Assembly: GCA_016188005.1 (NCBI GenBank)
Contig: JACPIQ010000088.1
Coordinates: forward strand, 1 to 34,719
Direction of reading: 5' to 3'
Origin: Candidatus Rokuibacteriota bacterium
GTDB lineage: Bacteria; Methylomirabilota; Methylomirabilia; Rokubacteriales; CSP1-6
DNA: 34,719 nucleotides
Position numbers and translations under genes: made by a program
In this document: one piece after another, positions 5,589-7,818 of the stretch
Layout: each line of letters starts with the position of its first letter
Numbering within the stretch: position 1 is the first letter of the stretch
Notes under the pieces: model-generated
Databases searched by the model: none
Seen by the model: the letters and a program-made list of their open reading frames with translations, nothing else
Told to the model about the DNA's origin: nothing

Positions 5589-5924
5589 TCACGGCCATTC
5601 GATGATGGTCCCAGCGACCGGCTCGATCCGCCTTCGACGCCACGCGTGATCGAACGAGGAGAGATAGGCGGCCTCGCGCACCTGGGGCAAGGTCACGACG
5701 ACGATCGCAAGGTCGGGAAGCGCGTCGAGGACGCCCCGTGCAGCCACCCCAAAGCGCCGGTCCCGCGTCAGGAGAGTGCGAAACCCCTCACGAGCGGCCA
5801 CCTGGGCGAGCGCACCGTTCGTGAGTTCCCGCCACCCACGGGCCGCCGTCGTCTCGGCGGCGACGCCGTACCCCTGGAGGAGGGCGATCAGGGCGGTGGG
5901 GAGGTTGACGTCAAGCAGCCACAT
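5589..5924 (-). CDS. DUF5615 PIN-like toxin
   Basis: A 111-residue protein of the DUF5615 family, a compact PIN-like fold predicted to be a ribonuclease toxin. It opens WLLDVNLP, with the conserved acidic residue D5 followed by N and P. It carries LLTRDRRFG at about residues 50-58, the usual second acidic site, and IVVVTLPQ on a later strand. The ATG lies inside the 3' end of the DUF433 gene (14 bp overlap), the normal antitoxin-first order for this pair. Acidic residues are intact, so it is probably functional. Toxicity of this family is predicted from pairing and fold rather than shown here. Confidence 0.85.
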   Translation of the reverse strand: MWLLDVNLPTALIALLQGYGVAAETTAARGWRELTNGALAQVAAREGFRTLLTRDRRFGVAARGVLDALPDLAIVVVTLPQVREAAYLSSFDHAWRRRRIEPVAGTIIEWP

Positions 5925-6147
5925 CGCTGCGGTCGGTCACCTCGGCGGCGAACCGCAGCACCTCCGCCAGGCTCTCACGCGGGAAGGCCGAGTACTCCCG
6001 GACGATGTCCTCGTACGACATGCCGTCGGCCAGGCATGCAAGGATGAACGAGGCCGAGAAGCGGGTTCCGCGGATCGTCGGCCTCCCGCCAAGACGGTCG
6101 GGATTTCTCACCAAGTACGAGAACCCCGGAATCGGCGTGTCGCTCAT
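5911..6147 (-). CDS. DUF433 antitoxin (VapB-like)
   Basis: A 78-residue DUF433 protein with the family signature GRPTIRGTRFSASFILACLADG at residues 21-42, then MSYEDIVREY and a C-terminal helix EVLRFAAEV. DUF433 proteins have a helix-turn-helix-like fold and are encoded beside DUF5615 toxins. By analogy with VapBC they bind the toxin and autoregulate the promoter. The start ATG at 6145-6147 has GGAGGGAAGGGC just upstream. It also overlaps by 4 bp (ATGA) the stop of a possible 16-codon ORF, which would couple its translation to that ORF. Confidence 0.87.
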   Translation of the reverse strand: MSDTPIPGFSYLVRNPDRLGGRPTIRGTRFSASFILACLADGMSYEDIVREYSAFPRESLAEVLRFAAEVTDRSDVAA

Positions 6148-6194
6148 GCCCTTCCCTCCTCTGCCAGCTCCCGAAGCCCGCGCGGCGCAGCCAT
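6144..6194 (-). CDS. Possible 16-residue leader ORF of the toxin-antitoxin unit
   Basis: The ORF encodes MAAPRGLRELAEEGRA. Its ATG at 6192-6194 is preceded by a near-perfect Shine-Dalgarno, AAGGAGG, with 7 nt spacing. Its TGA overlaps the DUF433 ATG in an ATGA junction. A TATACT -10-like element about 48 bp upstream fits a short leader. This arrangement suggests translation that feeds into the antitoxin gene. The peptide itself resembles nothing known to me, and a decayed gene end is an alternative. Confidence 0.4.
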   Translation of the reverse strand: MAAPRGLRELAEEGRA

Positions 6195-6434: not shown

Positions 6435-7163
6435 TCACCCCCGGCCCGCGCGCCCGGGGCCGGGGCGGCAGACGCGGCACGGCCGGTAGCCCAGCGAGCG
6501 CGCGTCCGCCACCGAGGCGAAGACCACCCGGTTGTCGGGGCGCATGTGCCGTCCGTGGATGCAGCCCACGCGGCAGACGATGTGTGTGCTCGTGCAGCCC
6601 TCGAAGACCGGTGTCGTGCGCTCGATCTGCAGGAGCCGATCCTTGACGTCGAGGCCGAAGATGTAGCCGCCGAGTCCGCCGTCGCTCCTGAGCACGCGGT
6701 GGCAGGGCACGATGACGGGCACAGGGTTCCGGCCCAGCGCCGTCCCCACCGCCCGCACCGCCCGCGGGTGACCGATGCGCCGGGCCACCCACGCGTAGGG
6801 GCGCGCCTCGCCGAACGGGATCTCGCGCGCCGCGGCGAGGACCTTCCGCTGGAATGCGGCAGCCCCGGACAGATCCACCGGCACCGAGAAGAACGCCCGC
6901 TTGCCGGCCAGATACTCGGCCAGTTCGATCCGCGCCCGCGCCACGAGCCGCCGCGCGGCGACGCTCGTGGCCGCCGGCTGCCGGCCGGCACGGATCAGCG
7001 AGACGCCGCGCGCCGTCGCGTGCACGGCGAGCCGCTCCACGAGCCCACCTGTCGCGCGGTCGGCCGCCGCCGCGCTCTCGAGCATCCGCCGCGCGAAGCC
7101 CTCCGGGAGCGGCGCCGGCTGGAAATACGCCGCCAGCACCCGGTCGAGGCGATCAGGATCCAT
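6435..7163 (-). CDS. O6-alkylguanine-DNA methyltransferase fused to C-terminal Ada-like zinc domain
   Basis: A 242-residue two-domain repair protein. Residues about 45-185 are an Ogt/MGMT-type methyltransferase: the acceptor motif VPCHRV places the reactive cysteine at 154, with RAVGTALGRNPVPVI before it and GGLGGYIFGLDVK after it. Residues about 187-234 match the Ada metal-binding domain in reverse domain order. Cysteines 197, 201, 229 and 232 reproduce the spacing of the four zinc ligands of Ada (38, 42, 69, 72), followed by the RPCRVCRP ending. Ada has this domain at the N terminus. A roughly 40-residue N-terminal extension (PAPLPEGFARRMLES) precedes the methyltransferase. The chosen ATG at 7163 has GAGGAGG 7 nt upstream; a longer start at 7181 lacks this. 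It overlaps the sigma gene by 11 bp. Confidence 0.88.
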   Translation of the reverse strand: MDPDRLDRVLAAYFQPAPLPEGFARRMLESAAAADRATGGLVERLAVHATARGVSLIRAGRQPAATSVAARRLVARARIELAEYLAGKRAFFSVPVDLSGAAAFQRKVLAAAREIPFGEARPYAWVARRIGHPRAVRAVGTALGRNPVPVIVPCHRVLRSDGGLGGYIFGLDVKDRLLQIERTTPVFEGCTSTHIVCRVGCIHGRHMRPDNRVVFASVADARSLGYRPCRVCRPGPGRAGRG

Positions 7164-7704
7164 TGCCGTCCTCCTCGCCAAGCGCCTTGCGGAGGATGGC
7201 CTTCCCCCGGGCGAGCTGGCTTTTCACCGTGTTCACGGAGATGCCCCGGACCCTCGCCAGCTCGTGGTTGGTGAGACCGTCCACGTAGGAGAGGGCCAAG
7301 AGCAGGCGCGCCTCGCGGGGCACGCGTTCGAGCGCCCGGGCCACATCGATCCGGCGCCCCGCCTCCCCGGGCCCCTCAAGGGGCACCGCCAGCGCCGCTG
7401 GATCGACCACCTGCGCGTGACTCGCACGGACGGTCCGCCGCCGCATCTCGTCGACGCAGACATTGGCGAGGATCCGGTAAAGCCAGGTCGAGACCGCCCA
7501 GCGGTATTGGTATCCGGCCGCGCCCAGATAACACTGGAGCAGCGCGCGCTGCACGGCGTCCTCGGCGTCGGCGCGCGAGCCCAGCAGCCTCCTGGCGACG
7601 GCCAGGAGCCGACCGCCATAGCGCTCCACCAGCTCGGTGAAGGCCGCGGCGTCCCTCTCGGCGACTCTCCGCATCAGCAGTCGGTCCTGGTCCATGGCTT
7701 TCAT
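7153..7704 (-). CDS. ECF-family RNA polymerase sigma factor
   Basis: A 183-residue extracytoplasmic-function sigma factor. Region 2 runs from about 20 to 90 (AFTELVERYGGRLLAVARR, then TWLYRILANVCVDEMRRR, the core-binding and -10-recognition helices). Region 4 runs from about 120 to 175 (LERVPREARLLLALSYVDGLTNHELA, then ISVNTVKSQLARGKAILRKAL, the -35 helix-turn-helix). No region 1.1 or 3 is present, as usual for ECF factors. MKAMDQ gives two possible ATG starts (7704 or 7695), and neither has a strong Shine-Dalgarno. Its 3' end overlaps the methyltransferase gene, where an anti-sigma gene would be expected. That makes an alkylation-response role an attractive inference. No classical anti-sigma zinc-finger gene is adjacent. 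Confidence 0.9.
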   Translation of the reverse strand: MKAMDQDRLLMRRVAERDAAAFTELVERYGGRLLAVARRLLGSRADAEDAVQRALLQCYLGAAGYQYRWAVSTWLYRILANVCVDEMRRRTVRASHAQVVDPAALAVPLEGPGEAGRRIDVARALERVPREARLLLALSYVDGLTNHELARVRGISVNTVKSQLARGKAILRKALGEEDGNGS

Positions 7705-7818
7705 CGAGGTATACGGCCCACGGGCCGAAACGGGGTGGAACGCGATGGAGACCAGGCTGCGACGTCGGGATGTGGCGCTGCGTCTGGCTTGCCGCGGGGC
7801 CCGACGGGCAGCCGGACC

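Follow-up and report, generated by a model that had tools for sequence, protein, structure and literature searches.

Locus and architecture of the gene pair

Rokubacteria are uncultured bacteria of soil and groundwater. The window analysed here, a stretch of 34,719 nucleotides, is contig C88 of a 5.37-Mb Rokubacterial genome. On its minus strand it encodes an ECF sigma factor (7153-7704; 183 aa, ATG start) and, overlapping it, a fusion protein (6435-7163; 242 aa counted from the ATG at 7163, with an alternative TTG start open 18 nt farther upstream). The sigma factor matches the Pfam domains Sigma70_r2 (residues 25-91, 2.4e-14) and Sigma70_r4_2 (residues 120-169, 1.9e-11), both above cut-off, as well as the NCBIfam sigma70-ECF family (1.4e-23). 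Its 183 residues hold regions 2 and 4 only, with region 3 absent, which is the make-up of an ECF factor, and the solved structures nearest to it are SigW, SigE, SigH and RpoE.

The fusion protein, whose best match in its own genome is itself (525.9 bits), consists of an N-terminal extension of about 40 residues (7044-7163), an O6-alkylguanine methyltransferase and an Ada zinc domain. The methyltransferase DNA-binding domain (PF01035) occupies residues 103-182 (6618-6857; 7.7e-30, above cut-off) and includes the acceptor C154 in a PCHRV motif (codon at 6702-6704). The zinc domain (PF02805, Ada_Zn_binding) occupies residues 188-234 (6462-6602; 1.4e-8, above cut-off, with the first ~18 profile positions unmatched), and its profile matches the N-Ada structures 1adn, 1zgw, 1u8b and 1wpk at about 1e-6. 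The zinc cysteines are C197, C201, C229 and C232, and C197, by its alignment with C38, the methylated cysteine of E. coli Ada, is a putative methyl acceptor. An earlier note on this DNA had read from it an 11-bp overlap, C154 as the acceptor, a methyltransferase followed by an Ada zinc domain in reverse order, and a short extension before the methyltransferase fold. All four features are present: the overlap of the sigma 3' end with the fusion 5' start lies at 7153-7163 by the coordinates of the open reading frames, and the reversal relative to Ada concerns the order of the domains only, the cysteines keeping the normal order C-x3-C ... C-x2-C.

The residues on which both activities would depend are well conserved. 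C154 and all four zinc cysteines are invariant in our alignment (A2), and all 55 relatives examined have the acceptor motif PCHR[VI] intact. The zinc motif was found by pattern in 50 of these; among the other five, one has a longer loop (L116), one is cut by a contig end (L130), and three are without it (L127, L128 and L134, the last being a second copy in genome G063).

Like E. coli Ada, whose domain order and acceptors C38 and C321 have been described (PMC4437013), the fusion combines a methyltransferase and a four-cysteine zinc domain in one protein, and, to judge from gene neighbours and promoter sequence, it appears linked both to genes of alkylation repair and to the induction of its own gene. 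Unlike Ada, it has the reversed domain order, an extra N-terminal extension and no AraC helix-turn-helix, none having been found in the protein by Pfam search. Ada acts at sigma-70 promoters, whereas the fusion is coupled to a dedicated ECF sigma factor. Behind the fusion gene, on the same strand (5589-6150), are a DUF5615 gene and, overlapping it on the upstream side, a small gene resembling DUF433 (Pfam confirmed DUF5615 only); the arrangement resembles a toxin-antitoxin pair and is unrelated to the sigma/fusion pair in other species.

A conserved promoter and a candidate regulon

A predicted sigma-specific promoter precedes the sigma gene (7710-7740, minus strand). It has a -35 element TTCCACCC (7733-7740), a 17-bp spacer and a -10 element CGTATA (7710-7715). 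The distance to the sigma ATG is 5 nt, which predicts a transcript with little or no leader. The pattern TTCC[AG]CCC-N16/17-CGTATA precedes the sigma gene in most orthologues, and in the 28 Rokubacterial upstream regions where it is conserved the spacer is always 16 or 17 bp. It is unique in the window and did not occur in 100 shuffles, and it has 48 matches in 95 genomes against 0 for a reversed-pattern control. About 32 of the 48 sites head the sigma operon, and we infer that this sigma factor recognizes the pattern as its promoter. In genera g13 and g19 the promoter lies before a small gene, thioesterase-like as read from sequence, that precedes the sigma gene.

The 16 other sites were inspected individually, with target domains confirmed by Pfam for representative members. 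EamA/DMT transporters (G042, G062, G063 and G074/G075), MFS transporters (G089, G046 and G057) and luciferase-like oxidoreductases (G042 and G057) lie behind such sites, and in G050 a PF09859 oxygenase gene lies ~200 bp downstream of one. In G084 (L251, L133) the promoter directly precedes a methyltransferase without sigma factor and extension, in a gene split over two contigs. About four of the 16 look like chance matches, and several precede transporters without a known alkylation role. The recurrence of transporters suggests an export arm of the regulon, perhaps directed against natural alkylating compounds. In the window genome, even a relaxed pattern gave no second site besides that of the sigma operon itself.

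Sites before MFS or EamA/DMT genes were seen in several species (L235, L236, L238, L241, L244, L246 and L250), and orthologous luciferase-like genes lie downstream of a sigma-type promoter in two genera (L237, L242). One perfect site precedes an MFS gene in a member of the window's own genus (L235 in G089) in whose genome neither the sigma factor nor the methyltransferase was found, which may reflect either an assembly gap or another sigma factor reading the site. In a Thermomicrobiales locus (L143), the zinc anti-sigma/methyltransferase gene has an EamA transporter gene behind it, reminiscent of the transporter sites in Rokubacteria.

Conservation of the pairing and its repair context

We searched 95 genomes of the phylum with the fusion protein as query (E<=1e-30) and found 54 homologues in 53 genomes, 45 of which have an ECF sigma gene directly upstream on the same strand, mostly with an overlap of 4-16 bp or within 15 bp. 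In the reverse search, 41 genomes had a close sigma orthologue; in 40 it adjoins the fusion gene, and in the remaining one (G060) the contig ends where the partner would come next. Consistent adjacency to an ECF gene had been named beforehand as a check on the unit, and a fusion that is common without a sigma neighbour as grounds for giving it up. The adjacency at 45 of 54 and 40 of 41 loci therefore argues against the latter in this phylum, the sigma gene being absent at 9 of 54. The pairing is not due to chance. The partner gene overlaps or directly follows the sigma gene and is conserved jointly with it, as expected of an anti-sigma gene, and the two genes form a real, conserved unit that is probably linked to alkylation.

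Comparative evidence supports a place for the pair in alkylation repair. In nine genomes from four Rokubacterial genera (loci L264-L280; G057, G058, G059, G061, G068, G070, G071, G072 and G073), the fusion gene is immediately followed, on its own strand, by an AlkB-like gene carrying PF09859, which Pfam describes as an oxygenase acting on damaged DNA. A pair from Chloroflexota (L164) is followed by a gene for an HhH-GPD AlkA-like DNA glycosylase that overlaps the methyltransferase gene by 4 bp. The window genome has no PF09859 gene, and the downstream genes of the first Actinomycetota and Chloroflexota loci examined gave no match to this family.

In genome G063 there is a second sigma-methyltransferase pair (L134 on contig C123), which is divergent and has a PF09859 gene behind it. 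Its sigma factor is sister to an actinobacterial sigma factor (support 100/99), which suggests that this pair was horizontally transferred.

The N-terminal extension tracks with the sigma factor

The part of the fusion protein that comes and goes with the sigma factor is the N-terminal extension, not the zinc domain. The clearest case is a congener (G090) whose locus is collinear with the window (DNA identity 93% and 85% on the two flanks), where one gap of ~745 bp deletes the sigma gene, the promoter and fusion residues 1-31, and the methyltransferase and zinc domain are conserved and open behind a new ATG. Across the phylum, a homologous extension occurs at 43 of 45 loci with the sigma gene versus 1 of 9 without it (Fisher p 4e-7, kinship ignored), the exception being L121 in G007, where the extension is retained with no adjacent sigma gene. 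The methyltransferase tree shows 6 changes in the sigma label and 5 in the extension; among independent pairs on the tree, three of three informative ones change together, none change in opposite directions and one is without change, numbers too few for significance. A comparison of length to the acceptor cysteine in paired and unpaired proteins (median 163 versus 123 residues) was set aside because it is biased by the choice of start codon.

The zinc domain behaves differently. It is retained without a sigma gene in G090, in G065 and in three f10 genomes, and many sigma-methyltransferase pairs are without it, and we therefore rejected it as a general sigma-coupling element. The proposal that methylation of this domain couples the protein to the sigma factor is not supported on either count, and with no AraC helix-turn-helix in the protein, it is unlikely to bind DNA as Ada does.

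Relatives of the fusion point to the origin of the extension. Orthologues in f7, a sister family (L125, L126 and L130), begin with MTCAQVRERLRAEG...AHLEGCLRCRQWW, a match to H-x3-C-x2-C, the defining motif of zinc anti-sigma (ZAS) domains (PMC4598750). The PAPPSLLGRILAAVE segment that follows the motif aligns with LPEGFARRMLESA of the window protein, whose extension is homologous to the region after the f7 zinc motif. The ECF sigma gene of Thermomicrobiales is followed by one that encodes a zinc anti-sigma domain fused to a methyltransferase, without an Ada zinc domain. H-x3-C-x2-C is present in four of these loci (L051, L052, L053 and L148); the Pfam zf-HC2 domain is sub-threshold in the f7 orthologues and in L051-L053 and above cut-off in L148 (6.3e-9). 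When the L051 N-terminus was searched against the PDB with phmmer, only two chains were returned, RsiW (0.35) and RslA (3hug; 0.53), with weak E-values. The motif is absent from the window protein, in which C154 is the first cysteine. Because these relatives carry a zinc anti-sigma motif at this place, the place is read as that of an anti-sigma domain, and the extension in Rokubacteria seems to be the trimmed two-helix remainder of such a domain.

The fusion gene thus resembles those of the ZAS factors RsiW, RsrA, ChrR and RslA in directly following an ECF gene, and the f7 and Thermomicrobial relatives share with them the H-x3-C-x2-C motif; the linker and helix behind this motif survive in the window protein. 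It differs from them in having only the two-helix part without the zinc motif, and in that its putative sensor is a DNA-repair enzyme. An extension of about 40 residues had seemed short for an anti-sigma domain. This concern is weakened by CnrY, in which two helices are enough to inhibit an ECF factor, and by NepR, which superimposes on CnrY (PMC4598750). The match of the extension to these two-helix anti-sigma factors is one of size and predicted helices. CnrY and NepR answer to a metal sensor or a phosphorylated mimic of a sigma factor, and not to alkyl transfer.

Predicted structure of the extension

AlphaFold2 assigns helices to residues 3-13 and 23-38 of the extension. In the model of the fusion alone (mean pLDDT 63.5, poor in parts), pLDDT over residues 1-40, in blocks of ten, is 60, 49, 48 and 46; with the sigma factor present, the same blocks reach 85, 85, 82 and 70 in a joined chain built from a shallow unpaired alignment, without a contact or error map. 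For this model the sigma stop (TGAT) was read as one residue, at the cost of fusion residues 1-4. In a Foldseek comparison the sigma part of the joined model is closest to SigW bound by RsiW, with high scores also against RpoE-NepR and CnrH-CnrY (TM by target 0.77-0.84), and it is far from RNA polymerase-bound SigH and SigE (TM 0.3-0.4). A caveat is that a closed form might be predicted for a free ECF factor too. Residues 1-40 are accordingly a predicted sigma-binding, two-helix extension. Direct contact through the extension, one of two routes that the earlier note had considered, is now the favoured one, given that the extension is lost with the sigma factor, that orthologues have a zinc anti-sigma motif and that predicted order rises in the joined model. 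The alkylation-sensing unit proposed in that note holds up in outline, with a conserved pair, a repair context and a probable contact through the extension; the zinc domain as coupler does not, and the emphasis shifts from it to the N-terminus.

A DNA-repair enzyme as candidate anti-sigma factor

We hypothesize that the fusion is a soluble anti-sigma factor in which a suicide DNA-repair enzyme serves as the sensor, so that alkylation frees the sigma factor, and we assign this reading a probability of roughly 0.6. From the gene pair, its promoter, the conserved catalytic and zinc residues, the joint loss of extension and sigma factor, and the anti-sigma zinc domain of the relatives, we infer how the fusion might bind and inhibit the sigma factor and release it, which lesions would induce it and what each cysteine would do. 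The two N-terminal helices would hold the ECF sigma factor inactive. An alkyl group from O6-alkylguanine in damaged DNA would move onto C154, and possibly another, from a methyl phosphotriester, onto C197 of the zinc domain. The alkylated fusion would change in shape or stability and free the sigma factor, which would then transcribe its own operon from the TTCC[AG]CCC/CGTATA promoter and so replace the spent enzyme; in relatives it would also induce the AlkB-like oxygenase and the transporters. Alkyl transfer is irreversible, and fresh enzyme must therefore be made (PMC4437013). This makes the proposed mechanism plausible, as does its economy: the damage to be sensed would itself use up the anti-sigma factor, and nothing else would be required. 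Weighing against the reading are the extension kept at L121 beside no sigma gene, the promoter sites of G084 and G089 that stand apart from any sigma gene, the sites before transporters, the lack of a PF09859 gene and of a second promoter site in the window genome, and the absence of the zinc anti-sigma motif from the window protein.

The main alternative is a co-activator resembling Ada. Here transcription would be switched on by the alkylated and not the free fusion, through binding to the sigma factor or the promoter, and the extension would recruit the sigma factor in place of the AraC domain that recruits RNA polymerase. Methylation of C38 makes E. coli Ada an activator (PMC4437013), the title of a study by Landini et al. 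cited there names an interaction between Ada and a sigma subunit, and the zinc domain of the fusion keeps the acceptor cysteine and its motif; the joint loss of extension and sigma factor would fit any direct contact. The co-activator is nonetheless unlikely, given that Pfam finds no AraC or other DNA-binding regulatory domain in the fusion, that most sigma-methyltransferase pairs are without the zinc domain, and that relatives bear a domain from a family that inhibits sigma factors. The same relatives count against a plain operon, in which the fusion would merely be a target of a sigma factor controlled otherwise and the overlap would be ordinary translational coupling. One promoter before the sigma gene does cover both genes, and in nine genomes downstream repair genes lie in the operon, as this simpler arrangement would have it. 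It leaves unexplained the loss of the extension together with the sigma factor and the anti-sigma zinc domain on the f7 and Thermomicrobiales methyltransferases, and between the promoter and the fusion the window encodes no other anti-sigma candidate; we consider it rather improbable.

The zinc cysteines might instead react with oxidants or electrophiles, or sense metals or thiols, in the manner of RsrA or ChrR, with the methyltransferase fold as a scaffold. Zinc-thiolate sites of anti-sigma factors are known redox sensors (PMC8999054), and efflux-type transporters recur among the promoter sites. The catalytic motif of the methyltransferase, however, is kept in 55 of 55 relatives, the recurrent operon partners are of DNA alkylation-repair types, and it is the methyltransferase that is retained in pairs without an Ada zinc domain, all of which makes such sensing very improbable.

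If the anti-sigma reading is true, each repair event would directly free sigma factor for more repair protein. The Rokubacterial version could then have two inputs, O6-alkylguanine through C154 and, perhaps, phosphotriesters through C197 of the zinc domain. The system would be an irreversible, stoichiometric counter of DNA damage, usable as a biosensor. Anti-sigma factors sense oxidants, metals, envelope stress and phosphorelays. In the literature searched we found none that uses a DNA-repair reaction as its signal.

Related pairs in other phyla and ECF122

A Thermomicrobial methyltransferase protein, used as query in Chloroflexota (a 350-genome sample) and Actinomycetota (347 genomes), gave 27 and 30 best matches, of which 20 and 24, respectively, have an ECF sigma gene directly upstream; these fractions are biased upward because the query was itself a paired protein. 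The genes mostly show an ATGA-type overlap, and most partners have neither zinc domain and only a short helical N-terminus.

A group of ECF factors, ECF122, was defined by Casas-Pastor et al. in 2021 and is described in a 2022 review as having a conserved 6-O-methylguanine DNA methyltransferase neighbour, "without anti-sigma factor" and with the mechanism unknown (PMC8999054). The Rokubacterial loci share with it an ECF sigma factor next to a conserved methyltransferase gene, found at 45 of 54 loci. They depart from its description in the Ada zinc domain of the partner, and the anti-sigma zinc motif in related partners contradicts the filing of ECF122 as having no anti-sigma factor. Rokubacterial and f7 sigma factors form one supported clade (100/97), which in the best tree lies outside the paired clade of Actinomycetota and Chloroflexota, although the AU test does not reject a single clade for all paired sigma factors (p-AU 0.096). 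The Actinomycetota and Chloroflexota pairs fit the ECF122 description and probably belong to that group. The Rokubacterial pair is a variation on a pairing already catalogued by genome context without explanation, and no experimental study of such a sigma-methyltransferase pair was found in the literature searched.

We see about even odds that bacteria have here a second, independently designed adaptive response to DNA alkylation, with the repair protein as anti-sigma factor, in which case the Actinomycetota and Chloroflexota pairs would share the design. If true, this would account for sigma factors that have been catalogued as a class without being explained (ECF122 and relatives) and provide a sigma-based counterpart, in large environmental bacterial groups, to the textbook Ada response.

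Upstream of the Actinomycetota and Chloroflexota sigma genes (L143-L204) there is a CTCAC ... CGTTC-like pair of words, with the exact words in 7 of 47 regions, and its reading as an autoregulatory promoter of these pairs is suggestive only. At one locus (L071), the ECF sigma gene is followed by two tandem methyltransferase genes.
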